A stretch of 64,000 nucleotides of DNA, taken from Bacteroidota bacterium. Its GTDB lineage: Bacteria > Bacteroidota > Bacteroidia > Chitinophagales > Chitinophagaceae. A program made the translations under genes and the position numbers. The DNA lies in contig JAPLEH010000022.1 in assembly GCA_026391455.1 (NCBI GenBank), positions 34,997 to 98,996 on the forward strand, read 5' to 3'. The notes beneath the pieces are model-generated. The model was not told where the DNA came from, ran no database searches, and saw only the letters and a list, made by a program, of their open reading frames with translations. This document shows, piece by piece, positions 8,670 to 64,000 of this stretch. The stretch's first letter is position 1, and the number at the start of each line of letters is the position of its first letter.

Positions 8670-9482
8670 TTATCTTTCATAGTTAAAAGTGGTATCCACC
8701 CGCTTAAGTGTATGATAGTTGAAAAGCCTATTCAGAAACCCGGTTAATGGCCGGCTGATGATGGGCACACAGGGAGCATTCATCTTAAAATAGTAACACG
8801 TATCATGTTGGTAGAGTATCAGCGTCAGGTCTGGCGCGTCGAAACATTTACGATGATATGGCCATTCAAGCGTTTTTAATTGCGAGTACTTCAAAATGTT
8901 TTTGAGCCTCTCCAGATCGTTAAACGATACTTTTCCAAAGTAATTATTGTTGCGGGTGGTATCCTGACACCCTGGTGCCCAGCCGGGACCATTGTCTGTA
9001 ACTTTCAGATTGCCGGAATAGTCGAGTTCCAGATGCAGATCATGACAGCAACCATAACAATGGCCTGAGTGAAAAATAATTTTTGTAAAAATATTCGTCG
9101 GATCAGCAAATTGATATTTGTTTTTAAAAACAATACTGTCCCTCCCTTTAAAATAGCTTTTTGCTTCGCGGGATTTGGGCGAAACCATAAAACTGTCTTC
9201 CGTTTTATATAAAATCGTAAACGTGTATTTATTAATATTTCTTTTGAATAGTTGTCTGATTAACCCATGCGTTTTTCTACGAAACTTCAGCTTGTCCTTC
9301 TTCTGTTTCAGGATCAGATTTTCATCAATATAGCTTTGTTTGTTTTCAATACCGCCTTCCTTGTCATCTATCACCAAACAGTCTTGCTGAGCAGAAAAAT
9401 AAGTACCGTCCAATTTGGTATATGTTGAACAGGAAACGAGCAAAAGCAAAAAGAAGATAGTTAGCAATCGCATACGGGTCAT
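8670..9482 (-). CDS. Lipoprotein with a DUF6438-like C-terminal domain
   Basis: The protein is about 270 residues from ATG 9482 (alternative ATG 9473, MRLLTIFF). It begins with a lipoprotein signal (LLLLVSCS). The middle (about 20-130) is basic and strand-rich. The rest, about 140-240, has SGHCYGCCHDLHLELDYSG and spaced aromatic/Cys residues reminiscent of DUF6438, where a Gly/Cys-rich turn precedes a beta-meander. Function is unknown in that family. The upstream 88 bp separates it from another lipoprotein gene on the same strand. The region is AT-rich compared with the flanking housekeeping genes. The domain call is tentative. Confidence 0.72.
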   Translation of the reverse strand: MTRMRLLTIFFLLLLVSCSTYTKLDGTYFSAQQDCLVIDDKEGGIENKQSYIDENLILKQKKDKLKFRRKTHGLIRQLFKRNINKYTFTILYKTEDSFMVSPKSREAKSYFKGRDSIVFKNKYQFADPTNIFTKIIFHSGHCYGCCHDLHLELDYSGNLKVTDNGPGWAPGCQDTTRNNNYFGKVSFNDLERLKNILKYSQLKTLEWPYHRKCFDAPDLTLILYQHDTCYYFKMNAPCVPIISRPLTGFLNRLFNYHTLKRVDTTFNYER

Positions 9483-18082: not shown

Positions 18083-18174
18083 ATGGTGAATAGTGAATGA
18101 AGCCGAAATCCGTCGGATTATCATTGACAATTCACAATTGACAATGTCACTTTTCACTATTCACTCTTCACCCT
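18080..18174. repeat. Inverted GTGAAT/ATTCAC word array between convergent genes
   Basis: The left arm starting at 18080 reads GTGAATGGTGAATAGTGAATG; the right arm 18150-18174 reads as its approximate complement. The centre holds a TTGACAATTCACAATTGACA palindrome. The array fills the convergent gap and shares words with 2101-2225. Confidence 0.7.
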
Positions 18175-55825: not shown

Positions 55826-57016
55826 TCATGGCCTCCTCCGGAAATTCCGCATCCAGGCCCAGTGTGTGCGTGGCGCATCGAACCAGTGGTTATCACCATT
55901 GGGGTATTTGTGGCCAAGTTCTTTCACAAATACATATCGGAGTATGTTGAGCGTATCACCCGGGGTTTGCGAATGATACAAAGCGATCATGGCAGCATTG
56001 GTGTCGCCGATCAGCGTATAATTGGAATCGAGCCCGAAATGGCGGATATAGCGATGCGCAATGTTGTAATACCTGTTGAAATTCGGCAAACCGGGAGTGC
56101 GCAGCAAAAAATCAAATGTGTCCAAAGGAATATATGGTCCGGTATTACCGGGCCCATAGTCAATATTACCGATTTGGTACAACAGCGGAATTTTTCTCAA
56201 GGGTGTATAGGTGGTATCATCCAGGTAAAAGGTGCCGGCATTGGAAACCACCGCGGCCAGCACATCACTCATCATGATGGAGGTTTTTGCAGCCATCTGT
56301 CCGCCATTGGAAAATCCATTCATGTATATCCGGTTGGTGTCGATATTGAATTTCTGTCGTACTTCGTCAATCACCTTGCGAAGAAACTTGATGTCATCGC
56401 GGGGCGACTGTCCGGGAAGTATGGTAAACTCTGCATCTGGTGTCGTATTCCACTTAGTGATACGTTTAACTGTACTGTCTGTATATATGAAATACCGGAG
56501 CGAAGAAGGAAACACACTGATAAACCCTTCCTCCTCTCCCAGCTCCTTCCAACCTGAACCATCATAAAACCGTTCGCCGTTACCTCCAGTGCCATGAAGC
56601 ATGAATACCAACGGTGTGGGTTGCGTACTGTCATAAATCGCCGGCACATGCACCCAGAATTCCCTTTCGGTACTGTCTACAATGATCGTGTAGCGGTTCT
56701 TCCCTTTTACAAATACATTGCCACTGCTAAGCACCACATCCCAATTGCTGCCGTTCCAACTGTAATACCCAGCTCCTTTGGGCAATTGCTTGTTGGTATT
56801 AAAGACCAGTAATGAAAGGGCGGGCTTTCGGATCGTAACGGTATCAGTCAAGGAAAGCAACTGAACCCTTGGTAATAACACACCCTTATTCGGACTGCTG
56901 ATGTCAAGGATCGCGCTGCTGTCGGCGGGACTTCCAGTTGCATTAATGGCCACAGACTGCGCATTCGTCATTAAAGACATCAGAAAAAAACTAAAAAGCA
57001 GATGAATTGATTTCAT
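55826..57016 (-). CDS. Secreted esterase/PHB-depolymerase-like hydrolase with N-terminal SAILD module
   Basis: A 396-residue protein with a signal peptide (cleavage near TNAQSV). Residues about 20-100 form a module with SSAILDISSPNKGVLLPRV and later LSLLVFNTNK. The same module starts the S74-type protein at 61230-62588 and resembles the phage-tail or fibre-like leader common in Bacteroidota surface proteins. The hydrolase domain follows with VFMLHGTGGNGERF (oxyanion region), MNGFSNGGQMAA (nucleophile Ser) and a C-terminal His near NGDNHWF. It resembles feruloyl-esterase or polyhydroxyalkanoate-depolymerase-type (LpqC) hydrolases; substrate not fixed. A TAGAAC-N4-GGGTGA site is 67 bp upstream. 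Confidence 0.85.
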   Translation of the reverse strand: MKSIHLLFSFFLMSLMTNAQSVAINATGSPADSSAILDISSPNKGVLLPRVQLLSLTDTVTIRKPALSLLVFNTNKQLPKGAGYYSWNGSNWDVVLSSGNVFVKGKNRYTIIVDSTEREFWVHVPAIYDSTQPTPLVFMLHGTGGNGERFYDGSGWKELGEEEGFISVFPSSLRYFIYTDSTVKRITKWNTTPDAEFTILPGQSPRDDIKFLRKVIDEVRQKFNIDTNRIYMNGFSNGGQMAAKTSIMMSDVLAAVVSNAGTFYLDDTTYTPLRKIPLLYQIGNIDYGPGNTGPYIPLDTFDFLLRTPGLPNFNRYYNIAHRYIRHFGLDSNYTLIGDTNAAMIALYHSQTPGDTLNILRYVFVKELGHKYPNGDNHWFDAPRTHWAWMRNFRRRP

Positions 57017-57082
57017 GTGATGAAGTGTTTAATTTATACTGGTAACAGGAAATAAAGATCACATGAATAAAATCTTCCCGCA

Positions 57083-57098
57083 TAGAACTAGGGGGTGA
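57083..57098 (-). promoter_or_regulatory. GGGTGA operator-like site upstream of the esterase gene
   Basis: TAGAAC-TAGG-GGGTGA (plus-strand order), 67-82 bp before ATG 57016. It has the same spacing as the TCACCC-N4-GGGTGA sites and the same left arm as the site at 63129. Confidence 0.55.
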
Positions 57099-57121
57099 AT
57101 TTTCTTCAAAAGCCTATAACT

Positions 57122-57154
57122 AAAAAGCCGGCATCAAAAAAATGCCGGCTTTTT
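57122..57154 (-). terminator. Terminator of the Ig-like/secreted protein operon
   Basis: AAAAAGCCGGCAT (57122-57134) pairs with ATGCCGGCTTTTT (57142-57154); it ends transcription just before the esterase control region. Confidence 0.85.
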
Positions 57155-57173
57155 GCTTAACAAATCCTTTGTA

Positions 57174-57719
57174 TCAGGATTTAAGTTTGACCATCAGTTT
57201 ATATGTACCTCCCGGCATATCTTTCGGAGAAGTAACTCCGATCACTATATTATACGTATTCTGGGTAGGGTTTTGAAATTCGATCTTCCGCTCACTGGTT
57301 TGTACTTTTCCTTTCCAGGGCATATCCCATTTATGATCCGCCTCGCAGGTAATGCAGGAAGGCAGGTTGGGCACGATCATAAATTCTTTATTCCCCATCA
57401 TATACCCGTATATGCTGAGATTACCCGCATCATCTGTTGGCTTTACGGTAATGGTGATAATCGAACGGGGAGGCAATGAAGTGGAATACAACACGTGATT
57501 GCCATTGAACTTTGCATTTTGGGTAGCCGGAAAGCAGGCATTGGAACTATTGGCGGCCCAGCTCAGGTCATCCATGGGCTGTCCCTTGGTGAGATCGCCG
57601 GATACAGTTACCGAATCATTGGCTTTGGCAGCCACCGGTGTTACATTGGCGGGCCATTGGGCATTCACCGATTGGGCCGTTATCAGGAGTAGAATAAAAA
57701 ATTGAATATACTTTTTCAT
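57174..57719 (-). CDS. Secreted protein of unknown function
   Basis: A 181-residue protein with a signal peptide (cleavage near SVNAQW), then a beta-rich domain with two Cys in LPSCITCEADHKWDMPW and the closing MPGGTYKLMVKL. Another strand region is LSWAANSSNACFPATQN. I do not recognise a family. It follows the Ig-like gene by 40 bp on the same strand and ends at a strong terminator, so it is the last gene of a two-gene unit whose first gene carries the GGGTGA site. Confidence 0.75.
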   Translation of the reverse strand: MKKYIQFFILLLITAQSVNAQWPANVTPVAAKANDSVTVSGDLTKGQPMDDLSWAANSSNACFPATQNAKFNGNHVLYSTSLPPRSIITITVKPTDDAGNLSIYGYMMGNKEFMIVPNLPSCITCEADHKWDMPWKGKVQTSERKIEFQNPTQNTYNIVIGVTSPKDMPGGTYKLMVKLKS

Positions 57720-57759
57720 AATTCTTTTATGTTAATGGTGAAACGGAGTTTGATTTCAT

Positions 57760-58218
57760 TTATTTGGGTGGAGATATTTCAATGGTAGTGATAATTGGAT
57801 CGCCGATGGGCTTATTATCATAATACATCTGGTACTGAATATTGAATTTTCCTGTGTATGACGGTGCTTCCCAATCATAGATATATTCTGTTGATTCACG
57901 GGGATCCACGAAACCCTCATTCACATCCCATTTTTTAGGAATGAATTCATCGCGCTGGCAGGCAGAGCCACTGGGGCAACGAACCACTTTTACGCGAAGT
58001 TCCACCTCACGGGATCCCCATATACAAGAGCCTTCGTTGTATACCCGCACATACGCCTTATACGCTTTTCCCGGAACAAATGTGTTGGAAGAAAACCGGA
58101 CAGAGGAAGAAATATTCGCGTCCATGGTGCATTCGCAGATCTTTTTTACTGTTACCTGTGCGGATGATGGCAGGTATGCCAACAGCAACAAAATAAAAAA
58201 AGAGAAACTCTTTCTCAT
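57760..58218 (-). CDS. Secreted NBR1-Ig-like protein
   Basis: A 152-residue protein with a signal peptide (cleavage near SSAQVT), then an Ig-like beta-sandwich. FVPGKAYKAYVRVYNEGSCIWGS is the typical NBR1/Ig-like start (a strand then a Trp), and YIYDWEAPSYTGKFNIQYQMY is the closing half. The Cys at CPSGSACQRDEF suggest disulphides. Such domains are binding modules; the ligand is unknown. It leads a two-gene unit, with a TCACCC-N4-GGGTGA site 83-98 bp upstream. Confidence 0.8.
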   Translation of the reverse strand: MRKSFSFFILLLLAYLPSSAQVTVKKICECTMDANISSSVRFSSNTFVPGKAYKAYVRVYNEGSCIWGSREVELRVKVVRCPSGSACQRDEFIPKKWDVNEGFVDPRESTEYIYDWEAPSYTGKFNIQYQMYYDNKPIGDPIITTIEISPPK

Positions 58219-58300
58219 ACTGATAAGTTTTTGGTGAGTTGATTGAGTTATAATAAATGGATTGTTTACGTAAAGCTATTACTGCTAAACGTACCTGCAT

Positions 58301-58316
58301 TCACCCCAACGGGTGA
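58301..58316 (-). promoter_or_regulatory. TCACCC-CAAC-GGGTGA palindrome upstream of the Ig-like gene
   Basis: Perfect 6-bp arms with an N4 spacer, 83-98 bp before ATG 58218, within a 154-bp gap that follows the response-regulator stop. Confidence 0.7.
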
Positions 58317-58372
58317 TTTTTATCCATTTCAGCTTTCCATCTTTTCGAAATGGAATTTATTACTATCGGAAT

Positions 58373-58996
58373 TTATTTGAGCATCAGGTTGCGCAAATTA
58401 TTGATCACTTCCAGCCTTGTATTGGCGTCCATTTTAAGATGTATATTCTTGAGGTGTGTCTTTACAGTGTTTTGTGAAATGAATACCATTTCTGCAATCT
58501 GTGAATTGGTCATTCCCTGATAAACCAGGCAAACGATCTCAAATTCCCTGTCGCTGAATGGAGTATGCAGGTAACGGTTCAGTTTATCCATACTAAGCCC
58601 CGGCAATCCATGGTTCTTTCGTTCAGCGTAATTGCTGATGGCAATCTCCAGCGAAGCGAGTAATGTTCGTTCATTGAAGGGCTTCACAATATAGCCATCC
58701 GGCTTTACCTGCTTGGCCCTTTCCAATGTGTTTTTGTCAGCATACGAGGTAAGAAATATAAAAGGCAACTGGTAACGCTGGTTGATATGCTGTGCAATAT
58801 CAATGCCGGAATGATCGCTCTCCAGGTTGATATCCAGAATGACCGCATCCGGTGTATTGGTTTTTAATTGATCAAATGCCTCCGCTGCATCATACGCTAT
58901 GCCGCTTACTTCAAAGTCATTATTATCCAGGTACAGCGAAATATTCTCTGCAATCACCGGTTCGTCCTCAACGATCAGTATCTTATGCCTGCTCAT
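58373..58996 (-). CDS. LuxR/NarL-type response regulator (module 1)
   Basis: A 207-residue protein. The receiver domain has IVEDEP (8-13), the phospho-acceptor in VILDINLES (Asp55), the Thr/Ser in FIFLTSYAD and the Lys in GYIVKPFNE. A LuxR-type helix-turn-helix output follows (about 142-207) with LSDREFEIVCLVYQGMTNSQ and SQNTVKTHLKNIHLKM. The start overlaps the stop of the kinase gene by 4 bp (ATGA), giving a tight pair. It probably binds an inverted repeat; the TCACCC-N4-GGGTGA sites nearby are candidates. A close paralogue sits at 63148-63771. Confidence 0.95.
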   Translation of the reverse strand: MSRHKILIVEDEPVIAENISLYLDNNDFEVSGIAYDAAEAFDQLKTNTPDAVILDINLESDHSGIDIAQHINQRYQLPFIFLTSYADKNTLERAKQVKPDGYIVKPFNERTLLASLEIAISNYAERKNHGLPGLSMDKLNRYLHTPFSDREFEIVCLVYQGMTNSQIAEMVFISQNTVKTHLKNIHLKMDANTRLEVINNLRNLMLK

Positions 58997-61101
58997 GCTG
59001 TTTTGAATTTAGTGATACTCATTTTCACCACGGCACCATTGTGGTTATATATATCCAGTTTCGCCTTCAGCTTCTGCGAAAAAGCCCTGATCATTTTCAA
59101 TCCGAATGACTTCCCCCCTTTCAGGTCAAGCCCCTCCGGATAACCGCGACCATTGTCGCTTACCAGCAATTGCAATTGTTCGGATACTTCATGCAAGGAA
59201 ACAGACAACTCTCCGTCCTGCTTATCTTTAAATGCATATTTAAATGAATTGCTAACCAATTCATTCAGCACCAGCCCCAGGGGTATCATGGTATCTACGT
59301 CCAGCTTAAGGTCATCAATATCCATATTGATCTTAACCTTATCATTGGTGATATTGTATGAATCGCATAACGTTTGAATCAGGTTACTCACGTATTCCTT
59401 TACCCGGATTCCTTTAATATTGCCCTCACTGTACAGGTTCTGATGGATCAGGGCCATACTTTGTACTCTGTTCCTGCCTTCTTTCACAGCTTCATGTGCT
59501 TGCAAATCCGTAATGGAATGGCTTTGCAGATCCAGCAGGCTGCTTACAATCTGCAGGTTATTTTTTACCCGGTGATGAATCTCTTTCATCAGCACCTCCA
59601 GATCAGCTGATTGTTTTTCAATAATATCATTTTTTCGTTTCTGCTTCCGGTATAGTGCCAGTATAGTGATGCCCGACAGCAATACCAGTCCGGCACCGGC
59701 GACCAGTATCCATTTTGTATTTCTTTCCTTTATAAGTTGTTGTTCCTTCAATGTATTTTCTCTCCCCAGGGCTTCATTCAACCGGGTTTGTTGCTCTTTC
59801 TCTTTTTTCACTGCCTGACTGTAGGCCTGCTCTTTTCGAACGATCGAATCCATCAGCATGTTTTCCCGGGCCAGCGCGCTTTTTTGGGTAAAAGTCTGCA
59901 TCAGCAAGAGGGAAGCCATTTTTTTATCCGAAATCAACAGGGCGATTTCCTTTTCGCGAAGGGCATTCCGGGAAGTAAGTAAGGCAATTTCCTGTTGCTT
60001 TTTCTCCGTTTCAAATTTCGTTTCCAATTCATACACCTGTTCTCTTTTTTGTAATGTCAGCATACTATCCTTCAGATCAAACAACTGATCCGCCATGCGG
60101 GAGGCTTCTTCATAGCGACCTGTCTTTTGCAACAGTGCATAGCGGGTCTTTTTCATAAAATAGATATTCTGCAAACTTCCGGTATTAATGGCCATTTCCA
60201 CGCCATCATTGGCAAAGCGTAAGGCTTCTTCGTATTCCTTTTTCTTTTCGTAATGGTTGATCAGGTAACTGTTGGCGATCAATGCCTGCTGCAATAATCC
60301 GGACTTCACCCCTTTTTCCTTTACCGATTTCATAAAGACCACATTACCCGAAAGTTTACTGTTGGTTACTCCCATCATAATATCACGCAGGGGATCTGTA
60401 ATGTTTTTGCGTTTGCGATCCTCCTGCAGTTCGTTGAATTCCTGAAGCAATGGTCCGGCATTATCAGGTTTATTGGAAGCAATATAGAAGTTCAGAAAAA
60501 TGGTGAGGAGGTAGATATGGTCAGGTTTTCCCTCTTTTTTAACCGTTACATTATAGGCCTTCAGGAAATACTTCTCTGCCGTTTGAAAATCTTCGGCCTG
60601 GTTATACATCTCACCAATGGCTGTATATACCAGCCAATTGCGATACGGATTTTTATCAGCGTTGTACAATTCCGCCTGCCGGTAATAAAAAAGGGCCGAA
60701 TCCTTTTTATCAAGCGAATTGTACAGATTGGCCCAACTCATCAGCCCGGCAATCTTCACTTCATAGATATCCGCTTTTTCCAGGTAGGGGCCTGCCAGCC
60801 GCATATACTTTTCAGCTTCCCGGAACCGGGTCAGTAAAAAAAACATCAGCGCATAATCCACATAACAGCGCGCTATGATATTATGGTTCCCGCTTTTCAG
60901 CGCGAGATCAGTGGCTATGTTCAGGCAGATCGTGGCACTATCATACTTCAGTTTTAACATGTACTTTTTAGCCATCAGGTCAATGGAATCGGCTTTGTAC
61001 ATATCCGCAATATCACTGTTCAGCAACCTGTTGAGTTCCTGCGTCGAACCACGGGCTGATAACAGCACCATAAAAACCAGTATGAATAGCCCGGAACGCA
61101 T
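58993..61101 (-). CDS. TPR-containing HisKA_2 sensor histidine kinase (module 1)
   Basis: A 702-residue protein with an N-terminal signal-like segment (1-20) and a helical TPR-type sensor (about 30-350). A coiled coil (about 350-460) follows, then one membrane helix (about 470-492, WILVAGAGLVLLSGI). The HisKA_2 phospho-acceptor region MKEIHHRVKNNLQIVSSL (about 505-522) comes next, and the HATPase is LVLNELVSNSFKYAF, SDNGRGYPEG and SFGLKMIRAFSQ. The sensor is likely periplasmic. It shares a 4-bp overlap with its response regulator and has a TCACCC-N4-GGGTGA site upstream, suggesting autoregulation. A TATATTTA -7-like box lies 6 nt before the start. Confidence 0.95.
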   Translation of the reverse strand: MRSGLFILVFMVLLSARGSTQELNRLLNSDIADMYKADSIDLMAKKYMLKLKYDSATICLNIATDLALKSGNHNIIARCYVDYALMFFLLTRFREAEKYMRLAGPYLEKADIYEVKIAGLMSWANLYNSLDKKDSALFYYRQAELYNADKNPYRNWLVYTAIGEMYNQAEDFQTAEKYFLKAYNVTVKKEGKPDHIYLLTIFLNFYIASNKPDNAGPLLQEFNELQEDRKRKNITDPLRDIMMGVTNSKLSGNVVFMKSVKEKGVKSGLLQQALIANSYLINHYEKKKEYEEALRFANDGVEMAINTGSLQNIYFMKKTRYALLQKTGRYEEASRMADQLFDLKDSMLTLQKREQVYELETKFETEKKQQEIALLTSRNALREKEIALLISDKKMASLLLMQTFTQKSALARENMLMDSIVRKEQAYSQAVKKEKEQQTRLNEALGRENTLKEQQLIKERNTKWILVAGAGLVLLSGITILALYRKQKRKNDIIEKQSADLEVLMKEIHHRVKNNLQIVSSLLDLQSHSITDLQAHEAVKEGRNRVQSMALIHQNLYSEGNIKGIRVKEYVSNLIQTLCDSYNITNDKVKINMDIDDLKLDVDTMIPLGLVLNELVSNSFKYAFKDKQDGELSVSLHEVSEQLQLLVSDNGRGYPEGLDLKGGKSFGLKMIRAFSQKLKAKLDIYNHNGAVVKMSITKFKTA

Positions 61102-61158
61102 AGGGTCTAAATATAAATATTAGTATGCATAAAATTAACAACCCTGGGCGGGTACTAC

Positions 61159-61174
61159 TCACCCAAGCGGGTGA
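61159..61174 (-). promoter_or_regulatory. TCACCC-AAGC-GGGTGA palindrome upstream of the kinase gene
   Basis: Perfect arms with an N4 spacer, 58-73 bp before ATG 61101, upstream of the near-consensus -7 box TATATTTA (61108-61115). Confidence 0.7.
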
Positions 61175-61229
61175 TTTACCCCAATAAAAAACCGGGCACC
61201 AATGGTGCCCGGCAAAAATGAAGATGCAA

Positions 61230-62588
61230 TTATTTCTTTTCCAATTTTTCAATACGCTGCAACAATTGCTCAATGAGTAACTGCTGTTTTTTTACCTGAT
61301 CTGCCAGTTCAGTGGACTTGCTGGCCGCCAATTGAGATTTAAGATCATTGATCATCACCTGCTGCTCCTGAATGGCTTTAATAGCAAGTACCCCAAACCC
61401 GCTGTAATCCATCGTTAGGACGGGTTTGCTGATGTCCCGGTCATATCGCTGATACACCAGCTCCGGAAAATAAGATTGCACATCCTGGGCCATCAATCCG
61501 ATCATCCGCCGGTCATCGTCTTTGCTGTCTGTATAATGATAACTATACACCGGCAATTGCCGGATCATTTCCAATACGGGCAGCATAGGCCGTATATTCT
61601 TTTTCTTATTTCGGTCAGACAATGCAGTATAAACACCCGTTACCCGGTCAATATTCGCTCGAAGAGATCCGTTTGAATAAAAGTTCAGCGAACTGTCAAT
61701 AGAAGACACATACATCCCCCATTTCAGGTTGATACTGGATGGATGACGCAATGAAAGCTGGTCGCCATTACTGAATCCTGTGATCTGCAGTCTGCCTTCC
61801 GTTACGTTCTTAATATCGGTAGCATAGGCCCCTATACCCACATTGTGATAAAACATTGAAACCGTTGGCGTGTCTAATGTTGCCGTACTCGTGGGAACTG
61901 CAAATGTATAAAAAGCCAGTCCATTGAAACGGTTATCCGAAGGTTGGGTTGGACCCGGGTTTTCGGTATAGGCTGAAATGGCAGCAACCTGCGCATTTGC
62001 CGATGAAGCGGCACCCGTAGAAGTGTACCCATTTTCAAACGTGATGGTGTTTTTCTGCCTGAATTCCCAACCCGTTGCAATTTTACGATTGACACCGGTA
62101 AGCACCAGTGTATTGATATTGTTTTTTGAATTGAGCAAGGCAGAATCCCGTAAACGCAGGATTTTCACTTTGGGGCTGAAATTAAGTACCGACCCCGTGT
62201 AATTGTCGAGTATCTCCACTCCATCAGTTGTATCCTCTAGTTGAATGCCCAATAAACCACCCTTTTTCCAAACCTTATCATTCAGATTATCGGAGAGGCG
62301 TACCCAGGTTAATGCCGTGGTATTGTAATAGTAAAAACCTCTGGCCATATCATTCCGCACACCGGGTTCCGTTGTATTGTACACAAGTAAACCCGTGGAA
62401 GGAAGAGGGATACTGGTCACATCTCGCAGGCTGTCAAGGGACACTTGCGGAATCATCACTCCTTTATTAGTGGATACCATGTGTAATATCGCATTGGCAT
62501 TAGGGCTTGTAGTACCAATGCCCACGTTTTGTGTACGAACAAAAGTTACACTGAGCAGAATTATTGAGAGAAATAGTAGTTTTCGCAT
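61230..62588 (-). CDS. S74-type intramolecular-chaperone (tail-fibre-like) surface protein
   Basis: A 452-residue protein with a signal peptide (cleavage near VRTQNV). The fibre-like leader contains NVGIGTTSPNANAILHM and NKGVMIPQVSLDSL, partly matching the SAILD module of the esterase. A beta-rich middle (about 100-330) is followed by the S74 chaperone domain. That domain has the self-cleavage signature SDRNKKKNIRPM (about 330-341), then VYSYHYTD, MIGLMAQDV and a C-terminal coiled coil. The S74 domain folds a trimeric fibre and cuts itself off at the Ser. It is often phage-like, but here it has a signal peptide and no phage neighbours. Two operator-like sites lie 49-86 bp upstream. Confidence 0.88.
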   Translation of the reverse strand: MRKLLFLSIILLSVTFVRTQNVGIGTTSPNANAILHMVSTNKGVMIPQVSLDSLRDVTSIPLPSTGLLVYNTTEPGVRNDMARGFYYYNTTALTWVRLSDNLNDKVWKKGGLLGIQLEDTTDGVEILDNYTGSVLNFSPKVKILRLRDSALLNSKNNINTLVLTGVNRKIATGWEFRQKNTITFENGYTSTGAASSANAQVAAISAYTENPGPTQPSDNRFNGLAFYTFAVPTSTATLDTPTVSMFYHNVGIGAYATDIKNVTEGRLQITGFSNGDQLSLRHPSSINLKWGMYVSSIDSSLNFYSNGSLRANIDRVTGVYTALSDRNKKKNIRPMLPVLEMIRQLPVYSYHYTDSKDDDRRMIGLMAQDVQSYFPELVYQRYDRDISKPVLTMDYSGFGVLAIKAIQEQQVMINDLKSQLAASKSTELADQVKKQQLLIEQLLQRIEKLEKK

Positions 62589-62636
62589 GTTAAATGGTTT
62601 GTTCCGGAAAGGTAGGTATAATCACTTATGCGAAAT

Positions 62637-62652
62637 TCACCCATTTGAGTGA
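62637..62652 (-). promoter_or_regulatory. TCACCC-ATTT-GAGTGA site upstream of the S74 gene
   Basis: Proximal of a tandem pair, 49-64 bp before ATG 62588; one mismatch in the right arm. It lies 22 nt upstream of a TACCTTTC -7-like box (62607-62614). Confidence 0.6.
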
Positions 62653-62658
62653 TATTAA

Positions 62659-62674
62659 TCACCCAAATGGGTGG
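62659..62674 (-). promoter_or_regulatory. TCACCC-AAAT-GGGTGG site upstream of the S74 gene
   Basis: Distal of the pair, 71-86 bp before ATG 62588; centre-to-centre distance 22 bp, about two helical turns, with the last base of the right arm changed. Confidence 0.6.
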
Positions 62675-62699
62675 CAATATGCCGAAACCTGACCTCTCA

Positions 62700-63002
62700 T
62701 CATTGTCTGTCCCGCCCATTGTGCTTTTTCCGGGCAATGCTGCGCGATGCCCGGTTTTGAGCTGCACTGATCCGGGCCTGCTCTCTGGCAGTTACCTCGC
62801 CATCTTTTTTGGCTTTGTTTTCCAGTCGCTGTATGTTTTCCTGCTGGTGTTCAATACGGCGTTGTTCCCGTTTGGTAAGCTCCCCGCTGTTTACGCCATT
62901 CTCTGTGCGTTGTTCCTGGTTTTCCTGACGCACATTGGTTTGTGCTTTCGACTGCATCATACAGGTTAATGCAAGTACAGTACATACGATTTTCCATTTC
63001 AT
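62700..63002 (-). CDS. Small exported helical repeat protein
   Basis: A protein of about 100 residues from ATG 63002 (MKWKIVCTVLALTC; ATG 63008 is also possible) with a signal peptide (cleavage near SKAQTN). The body is a basic helical repeat: GELTKREQRRIEHQQENIQR and, 30 residues later, GEVTAREQARISAAQNRAS. The unit (G-E-x-T-x-R-E-x-x-R-I) recurs twice and resembles the helical-repeat proteins of related bacteria. Function unknown; it may bind nucleic acid or cell-wall polymers because of the Lys/Arg excess. A TAGAAC-N4-GGGTGA site lies 127-142 bp upstream. Confidence 0.75.
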   Translation of the reverse strand: MKWKIVCTVLALTCMMQSKAQTNVRQENQEQRTENGVNSGELTKREQRRIEHQQENIQRLENKAKKDGEVTAREQARISAAQNRASRSIARKKHNGRDRQ

Positions 63003-63128
63003 AATCATCGTGTTTTTTGGGTTAATGAATAAATTTTTCGGCGAAATCATTAAACATTCAATGGCAAATCCGGATCATACCGGTGCATGTTCACGACATA
63101 AAGATGAATGGAAATAACTCCCCGTATG

Positions 63129-63144
63129 TAGAACCCGGGGGTGA
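63129..63144 (-). promoter_or_regulatory. TAGAAC-CCGG-GGGTGA site upstream of the helical repeat gene
   Basis: Same left arm, spacing and right arm as the site at 57083-57098. It lies 127-142 bp before ATG 63002, just after the response-regulator stop at 63148. Confidence 0.55.
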
Positions 63145-63147
63145 AAT

Positions 63148-63771
63148 TTATTTAAGCATATGATCACGTAAGCGGGCGATGGCTGTGGTTCGGCTCGTTA
63201 CATCCAGTTTGAAATAAGCATTATTGATATGCTTCTTCAATGTATTGATAGCAATGAATAATGCTTCAGCGATCTGTTGATTGGTTTTACCCTCGTACAT
63301 CAGCCGGATCACATCAAACTCCCGGTCGCTCAGCGGCGCCACCAGTTGCTTATTGATCTTGTCAGATGACAATGCCGGCACATGCCGGTTCGAAGCTGAT
63401 GCATGATTGGACAGCGCAATCTCAATGGTGGCATAGAGCGTTTTCTCATTGAAAGGCTTTACAATAAATCCGGCCGGGTTGGTTTTCTTTGCCCGTTCGA
63501 TCGTTTCCTTATCGGAGTAAGAAGTGAGATATACAAAAGGAATAAAATGATGCTGGTTGATGTACTCAGCGATCTCAATACCATCCTTCTCACTTTCGAG
63601 GTTAATATCCAGAATGGCAAAATCCGGTTGCTGCCTTTTCAACTGATAAAAAGCTTCTTCCGAATCATACGCAATACCGGATACTTCAAAATCATTATTA
63701 TTCAGGTACATCCCGATATTTTTTGCAATCAGGGGTTCATCTTCCACGATCAGTACTTTTATTCCGCTCAT
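63148..63771 (-). CDS. LuxR/NarL-type response regulator (module 2)
   Basis: A 207-residue paralogue of module 1. The receiver has IVEDEP (8-13), the phospho-acceptor Asp55 in AILDINLES, FVYLTSYSD and GFIVKPFNE. The LuxR-type output is LSDREFDVIRLMYEGKTNQQ and AINTLKKHINNAYFKL. It starts 1 bp after the kinase stop. The recognition helix is similar but not identical to that of module 1 (NTLKKHINNAY versus NTVKTHLKNIH), so both may read related sites. It is the last gene of module 2. Confidence 0.95.
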   Translation of the reverse strand: MSGIKVLIVEDEPLIAKNIGMYLNNNDFEVSGIAYDSEEAFYQLKRQQPDFAILDINLESEKDGIEIAEYINQHHFIPFVYLTSYSDKETIERAKKTNPAGFIVKPFNEKTLYATIEIALSNHASASNRHVPALSSDKINKQLVAPLSDREFDVIRLMYEGKTNQQIAEALFIAINTLKKHINNAYFKLDVTSRTTAIARLRDHMLK

Positions 63772-63772
63772 G

Positions 63773-64000
63773 TCAGGCAGTGGTTTTAAATTTTGTAATG
63801 ATCAGTTGAACGGCAGTCCCGTTCTCCCTGTTAATATGCATCCGGGCTTTCATCTTTTGTGTAAAAGCCTTGATGATCTCAAAACCGAATGTACTGGTGG
63901 TATCAGGATCAAATCCGGCCGGAAGGCCTACCCCATTATCTTTCACTTCCAGATATAACGCCTGTTCCATTTTCTTCATGGTGATCCAGATATCACCTTT
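63773..64000 (-). CDS. Sensor histidine kinase (module 2), C-terminal end only
   Basis: This is the last 75 residues of a kinase that begins beyond the right edge. The HATPase motifs are visible: LEVKDNGVGLPAG (G1 box), then STFGFEIIKAFTQ (G2-like), ending ITKFKTT, nearly identical to the C-terminus of the module 1 kinase (ITKFKT). It is therefore the likely partner of the adjacent regulator at 63148-63771. The sensor part cannot be seen. Confidence 0.85.
   Translation of the reverse strand, partial: KGDIWITMKKMEQALYLEVKDNGVGLPAGFDPDTTSTFGFEIIKAFTQKMKARMHINRENGTAVQLIITKFKTTA

Follow-up and report, generated by a model that had tools for sequence, protein, structure and literature searches.

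Two candidate operator types with near-fixed spacing to -7 boxes at a Chitinophagaceae locus with two histidine kinase/response regulator modules

The question raised by this locus is whether the similar 16-bp sites that stand in front of its genes are one operator or two. The window, which here means the whole stretch of 64,000 nucleotides analysed from a Bacteroidota bacterium (Chitinophagaceae; contig JAPLEH010000022.1), encodes two LuxR-type response regulators (RR), RR1 and RR2, with their neighbouring histidine kinases (HK), HK1 and HK2. A preliminary description of this DNA treated six sites at these modules as one shared operator of one regulon; it overlooked the near-fixed spacing of the sites to a -7 box and did not distinguish the two types of site as separate operators. 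The best reading of the sequence is two operators and two interleaved local regulons, rather than a single common site. The six sites are probably the operators of RR1, a palindrome TCACCC-N4-GGGTGA, and of RR2, an asymmetric site TCACCC-N4-GTTCTA, and each regulator is predicted to activate from about -42.5.

All six sites were confirmed at the coordinates first reported for them, with the reported mismatches and an identical N4 spacer. The two sites first written as TAGAAC-N4-GGGTGA become TCACCC-N4-GTTCTA when read along the minus strand, on which this region is transcribed, and are called hybrid sites below. The candidate operators are:

58301 to 58316, minus strand: palindromic (RR1-type) operator, exact TCACCC-N4-GGGTGA, preceding the Ig-like gene
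61159 to 61174, minus strand: palindromic (RR1-type) operator, exact TCACCC-N4-GGGTGA, serving the HK1-RR1 operon
62637 to 62652, minus strand: palindromic operator with 1 mismatch, proximal member of a tandem pair, preceding the S74 gene
62659 to 62674, minus strand: palindromic operator with 1 mismatch, distal member of the pair, 22 bp upstream of the proximal one and without a -7 box of its own
57083 to 57098, minus strand: hybrid (RR2-type) operator TCACCC-N4-GTTCTA preceding the esterase gene, with its centre implied at -42.5
63129 to 63144, minus strand: hybrid (RR2-type) operator TCACCC-N4-GTTCTA of the helical-repeat gene, 3 bases past the RR2 stop codon

Five of the six have a Bacteroidetes-type -7 box at one downstream distance, to within about 1 base: some 22 bases separate the operator from the 8-base -7-like box that follows it. 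The exception is the distal site of the tandem pair. The boxes are:

57053 to 57060, minus strand: -7-like box GATCTTTA, esterase promoter
58271 to 58278, minus strand: -7 box TAGCTTTA, promoter of the Ig-like gene
61129 to 61136, minus strand: -7 box region AATTTTAT, HK1 promoter, where the exact TAnnTTT starts one base upstream
62607 to 62614, minus strand: -7 box TACCTTTC, S74 promoter
63099 to 63106, minus strand: -7-like box CATCTTTA, promoter of the helical-repeat gene

The exact TAnnTTT is found 22 bases behind the site in the Ig-like and S74 promoters and 21 bases behind it in the HK1 promoter. The gaps from site to start codon measure 48-82 bp, or 126 bp if the helical-repeat gene begins at a later ATG, in agreement with the 49-142 bp reported before. 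In Flavobacterium psychrophilum the sigma-A box TAnnTTTG was mapped at -12 to -5 (PMC9723704). Numbering borrowed by analogy from that species therefore places the operator centre at -42.5, which is also the usual centre of the lux box (PMC4471428, PMC7585371). The upper of the two tandem operators before the S74 gene (62637-62674) comes to lie near -64.5, a class I-like position.

The same layout is seen in a set of 40 sites chosen by hand from intergenic DNA adjoining HK/RR units of the window and its relatives and aligned without gaps. The set excludes intragenic sites with up to 2 mismatches, and 3 of its 34 "palindromic-type" sites are RR2 or RR3 kinase promoters (G009 K2, G009 K3 and G004 K2). 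An A occupies -11 in 38 of the 40 sites and TT occupies -8/-7 in all of them. The exact TAnnTTT follows the site at 20 bases in 2 cases, at 21 in 7 and at 22 in 9 (18/40), compared to a mean of 1.6 sites and a maximum of 6 in 500 shuffles. Just upstream of the operator is an A-tract in 35 of the 40, and conservation is limited to this tract, the 16 bases and the -7 box. In a position-blind test, palindromes with at most 1 mismatch in 18 loci had A..TT at the spacing in 29 of 33 cases, corrected to 28 of 32 for one site doubled via overlapping contig ends; off-register the count was 11 at a shift of -1, 6 at +1 and 0-4 at shifts of 2 or more.

None of the 40 chosen sites has TTTG in the -33 region. 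Since this box is missing and the spacing is near-fixed, these promoters seem to need an activator, which would stand in for the -33 contact. The layout is that of class II activator promoters: an operator near -42 (numbering by analogy), a near-constant spacing and no upstream sigma box. Palindromes abutting the -33 region can also repress, and the operators here do abut it, so the regulators might repress or act in a dual manner, blocking polymerase at -33 until a signal arrives. We consider this quite unlikely, because promoters without the -33 TTTG are expected to be weak when unaided, and the spacing is constant to about 1 base, as expected for contact with sigma. The near-constant distance to a start-proximal box would also suit the upstream box of an alternative sigma factor. 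That explanation has very little to commend it: the downstream box is of the sigma-A type, and the element is a dyad that tracks the clade of the adjacent RR and matches the operator of the Streptomyces regulator BldM (see below).

The dyad could in principle act as RNA. A stem of 6 bp with a 4-base loop can be drawn, and in several loci the element starts 0-3 bases past a stop codon, where a terminator or attenuator behind the RR gene might be placed. Such a hairpin is highly improbable and was ruled out by the lack of compensatory change: none is seen in 34 sequences, and pairing is no better than in shuffles. The hybrid form moreover does not pair, and the element lies upstream of the implied transcription start and is present before kinases as well.

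The sites are rare and clustered. At up to 2 mismatches the palindrome has 8 matches in the window against 2.1 expected, a count reached in 0 of 100 shuffles. The hybrid at the same stringency shows no clear enrichment in the window (7 against 3.7 expected, with 3 shuffles as high), and only its two exact copies stand out. The window's own genome (G000; 5,515,762 bases) was scanned for the motif, as the preliminary description had proposed, with the reversed pattern as control. Allowing up to 1 mismatch, the palindrome was found at 22 places and its control at 5, and 2 of the 3 exact palindromes are in this locus; the hybrid was only mildly in excess at that stringency (18 against 10), though both of its exact copies fall in this locus. 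Thirteen of the 18 off-locus palindromes were fetched; 11 of these 13 lie inside open reading frames (ORFs), and a promoter box at the spacing was found in 1 of the 13, itself within an ORF. A wide genome regulon was rejected, as a profile of the palindrome passes E 0.05 at only 2 places of the genome, both in the locus; at E 10 or better it finds 9 places, on C70, C45 and C53. Because the profile finds the locus alone at E 0.05, despite 37 GerE domain matches in the genome, both regulons look local. The sole exact off-locus palindrome (L001 1501-1516; G000 C45:6478) is intergenic and is not followed by a -7 box at the spacing; the gene of another LuxR-type regulator lies 8 kb from it.

Comparison of orthologous loci, also proposed earlier, bears the layout out: it recurs in at least one region at 32 of 37 RR loci and in 26 of 30 genomes with related HK/RR units. 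Of the 72 regions examined in these loci, 49 have the box together with at least 7 of 10 operator bases (shuffle mean 1.9, maximum 4 in 40 shuffles), and 39 have it with at least 8 of 10 (shuffle mean 0.2). In the counts given here G262 was excluded as its contig ends behind the RR, G271 was taken as the same contig as L091 on account of equal coordinates and identity, and the close copies G123/G263 and G445/G448 were counted separately. Relatives of RR1, the own genome counted, are present in 10 of 58 genomes, in 12 of 42 of the genus (looser cut-off) and in 16 of 244 of the family; among loci with a named source, the close ones come from Chitinophagaceae, Chitinophagales, Ferruginibacter or Bacteroidota metagenome assemblies. 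A profile of the 34 palindromic-type promoters, built partly from genomes on which it was then tested, matches in 9 of the 12 genomes of the genus that encode an RR relative and in 1 of the 30 that do not, where the match is partial.

Of 14 loci from other genera, 6 have the box behind the RR together with at least 10 of 12 consensus bases, and none did so in 100 shuffles, a test restricted to the two window consensuses, while the exploratory scan that preceded it also used the newly seen TCACAC form. Other half-sites occur on the same chassis: TCACAC-N4-GTGTTA in G445, G448 and G018, and, in other genera, forms with TCATAC and CTACCC. Over 394 genomes of the family the composite pattern gave 42 matches in 35 genomes, 9 of them in the 8 genomes from the genus, where the control had 0; outside the genus it was near background (33 matches in 386 genomes against 26 reversed). 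Chance, or clustering of a repeat element, might draw on the off-locus site that also has a promoter box. It is barely credible, since rarity, clustering, spacing, co-occurrence with RRs and the multi-genome tests all oppose it, as do the restricted conservation and the presence of the sites in orthologous loci.

The two site types follow different regulators. Recognition helices of the RR1 clade read NT[VIL]K[TS]HLK and those of the RR2 clade NTLKKHINN. A hybrid composite pattern, drawn up after the RR2 genomes had been seen, matches in all 5 of the 42 genus genomes that have an RR2-clade regulator (G000 twice; G004, G009, G010 and G022 once each), and hybrid promoters are present in 0 of the 37 others, including four with RR1 alone. 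The pattern has 2 extra matches, in G019 and G448, with other left halves, and 4 control matches. G010 has a near-hybrid TCACCCCCTGGTATTA behind RR2 and an exact hybrid before HK2. In G082, which belongs to another genus, the helix of the RR is of RR2 type and a hybrid operator follows the gene. The most telling single test of the pairing of operator and regulator comes from the esterase. Its homologue stands directly behind RR2 in all five relatives (57% identity in G004, 62% in G009, 66% in G010, 52% in G022 and 45% in G082). In the window the gene lies 6 kb from RR2, behind the RR1 block, yet carries the RR2-type operator. One shared regulon for both site types was ruled out, the hybrid tracking the RR2 clade and the palindrome mostly RR1; from the earlier account there remain the LuxR-type operator-like sites, the inclusion of the kinase's own promoter and the predicted secreted targets.

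The palindrome has a counterpart in another phylum. BldM, a response regulator of Streptomyces, footprints on TCACcCgnncGgGTGA, a 16-bp palindrome, and its consensus TCACcC-N4-GgGTGA is the same as the window palindrome (PMC4125116), which supports the assignment of the palindrome to RR1, the likeness being drawn at the level of the operator. A second class of operators with one half replaced is bound by BldM-WhiI heterodimers (PMC4125116). BldM and WhiI differ from the regulators here as orphan atypical regulators with a genome-wide developmental regulon (PMC4125116).

The half-changed site makes a heterodimer worth considering for the hybrid. RR1 would bind TCACCC and RR2 TAGAAC, as in BldM-WhiI Group II, and the hybrid genes would integrate both signals. 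The hybrid does pair an RR1-type half with a half of another sequence, and all 6 such sites in the loci read have them in the same order, just as the BldM-WhiI site joins half of the BldM palindrome to a different half (PMC4125116). Against this, G082 has a hybrid and no RR1 was found in its 96% complete assembly (one RR relative at E 1e-45, of the RR2 type; 12 of 32 candidates scored), and G004 has a hybrid with no RR1 found in an 83% complete one. Incomplete assemblies might hide an RR1, or another partner might be used. The heterodimer is possible, weakened by these two genomes and on the whole unlikely; RR2 most likely binds the asymmetric site as a homodimer. A palindromic TAGAAC-N4-GTTCTA at the spacing was found in none of the 42 genomes.

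Several observations count against two operators that each activate from a fixed position. Near-palindromes, TAACCCTCAGGGGTGA and TAACCCCCTGGGGTCA, stand in the kinase promoters of the RR2 modules in G004 and G009, so there is no clean split; G004, where no RR1 was found, yields a match to the palindrome profile at that very promoter, and palindromes also stand alongside regulators outside the RR1 clade, for example in G094. The boxes of both window hybrid promoters lack the leading T, and 22 of the 40 chosen sites lack the exact TAnnTTT at the spacing. The spacing wobbles by about 1 base, with the A out of register in G001 K1 and G019 K1. Five of the 37 RR loci are without the layout at score 7, and among the loci of other genera 3 score at a shift of +1 as well and 2 at a shift of +2. 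Finally, a palindrome and its position do not prove activation over repression.

The genes that these promoters would serve, and the two modules, are:

55826 to 57016, minus strand: predicted secreted esterase (Esterase_PHB, Pfam) with a VAIN-type N-terminal head
57174 to 57719, minus strand: predicted secreted protein of 181 amino acids, likely in one unit with the Ig-like gene
57760 to 58218, minus strand: predicted secreted Ig-like protein (N_BRCA1_IG, below the Pfam cut-off), first gene behind RR1
58373 to 58996, minus strand: RR1, LuxR-type response regulator with recognition helix NTVKTHLK
58993 to 61101, minus strand: HK1, tetratricopeptide-repeat (TPR) sensor with a HisKA_2-HATPase kinase, its end overlapping the RR1 start by 4 bases
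61230 to 62588, minus strand: predicted secreted Peptidase_S74 protein with a VGIGT-type N-terminal head
62700 to 63050, minus strand: small predicted secreted helical-repeat protein, with a later ATG at 63002 as the likelier start
63148 to 63771, minus strand: RR2, LuxR-type response regulator with recognition helix NTLKKHINN
63773 to 64000, minus strand: 3' part of HK2, cut by the contig end

RR1 and RR2 are 58% identical, and in both the receiver and GerE domains score above the Pfam cut-off, which places them with the NarL/FixJ, LuxR-type regulators. The kinase partner adjoins RR1 in the form of HK1, with its HisKA_2 and HATPase domains and a single strong hydrophobic stretch near residue 465. 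The promoter of HK2 is not visible, as it lies off the contig, at whose end the window stops. A third HK/RR module is found 77 kb away on the same contig (G000 C70:15947-18511; L102); its RR is 42% identical to RR1, and a weak form of the layout (TCATCCAAAAGGACTA) precedes its kinase. Signal-peptide-like starts are present on the non-regulatory genes of the locus, and the targets in relatives are likewise secreted-looking. The S74 protein (61230-62588) and the esterase (55826-57016) have a common secreted N-terminal head, Q-[NS]-V-[GA]-I-[GN]-...-KGV..P. A VGIGT/VAIN-type head was found in 14 of 30 non-kinase targets, the window included, with a simple expression that misses at least 2 more; in this survey the G018 row for the gene behind the RR was read one base off.

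A mechanism can be proposed in which binding, phosphotransfer, activation and transcription starts are all inferred. HK1 would phosphorylate RR1 and HK2 would phosphorylate RR2. The phosphorylated dimer, bound across -50 to -35, would replace the -33 contact and recruit sigma-A RNA polymerase (class II activation), with transcription starting about 34 bases downstream of the operators. RR1 would raise its own HK1-RR1 operon, a positive feedback, as well as the S74 protein through the tandem sites, and the unit made up of the Ig-like gene and the adjoining gene for the 181-residue protein. The predicted targets of RR2 are the helical-repeat gene and the esterase.

Across the relatives, one operator base covaries with one residue of the recognition helix. 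Where T or S stands behind the NT[VIL]K motif, base 15 is G in 25 of 26 operators; with other residues G is absent in 22 of 23 (47/49 concordant; Fisher 1e-11, from related sequences). The operators were picked blind to bases 2 and 15, against the background of the 37-locus shuffle comparison. This helix position corresponds to the DNA-contacting Val189 of NarL. The association is not phylogenetically independent, T needing two changes on the tree and K three, and there are two exceptions: K2 of G004 combines G15 with helix K, and K3 of G000 has helix T but lacks G15. As the regulators are related and the tree changes few, the covariation is a strong lead rather than proof. More tentatively, and with rather less than even confidence, the modules might form a Chitinophagaceae family of self-contained TPR-kinase/LuxR-type units on one promoter chassis (A-tract, 16-bp operator near -42.5, -7 box, no -33 box), in which one helix residue sets base 15 and duplicates are insulated by paired changes of helix and half-site; the window would then hold two interleaved modules of it.

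BldM, too, has a LuxR-type DNA-binding domain. By architecture, the nearest characterised system among those met is FimS/FimR of Porphyromonas gingivalis, of the same phylum, in which a TPR sensor kinase is paired with a response regulator that binds the promoters of surface appendage genes and activates them (PMC1974823, PMC11053733). Its targets are fimbriae, and the accessible descriptions include no 16-bp operator (PMC1974823, PMC11053733). HK1 scores 34.4 bits against the NCBIfam model of FimS, short of its cut-off of 600. LuxR homologues likewise bind a dyad usually centred at -42.5 and differ in being autoinducer receptors with a 20-bp box and no kinase (PMC4471428, PMC7585371). Among structures, the DNA-binding domain of RR1 matches 4wt0, presumably LiaR (E 1e-10), VraR 5hev (3e-8) and NarL 1je8 (8e-6); these have the GerE domain in common with RR1, a likeness at the level of the domain.

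A literature search, with subscription papers mostly outside its reach, found no published operator for these Bacteroidota two-component systems, and a predicted operator is offered here for a group of systems without one found in print. The paralogue series, in which operator and recognition helix change together, gives a route to study the insulation of duplicated response regulators, and the palindrome in common with BldM allows a residue-by-residue comparison of two phyla. The layout is strict enough for predicting local regulons from sequence.

Two further observations were made in relatives. On L178 (G022 C3) two palindromes at 8865-8880 and 18088-18103 lie 9 kb apart, outside the HK/RR locus, with a nearly fitting box, and are perhaps distant regulon members. 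An identical operator is present on two G010 contig ends, L103 85-100 and L177 42-57, suggesting an overlap of the two contigs in the assembly.

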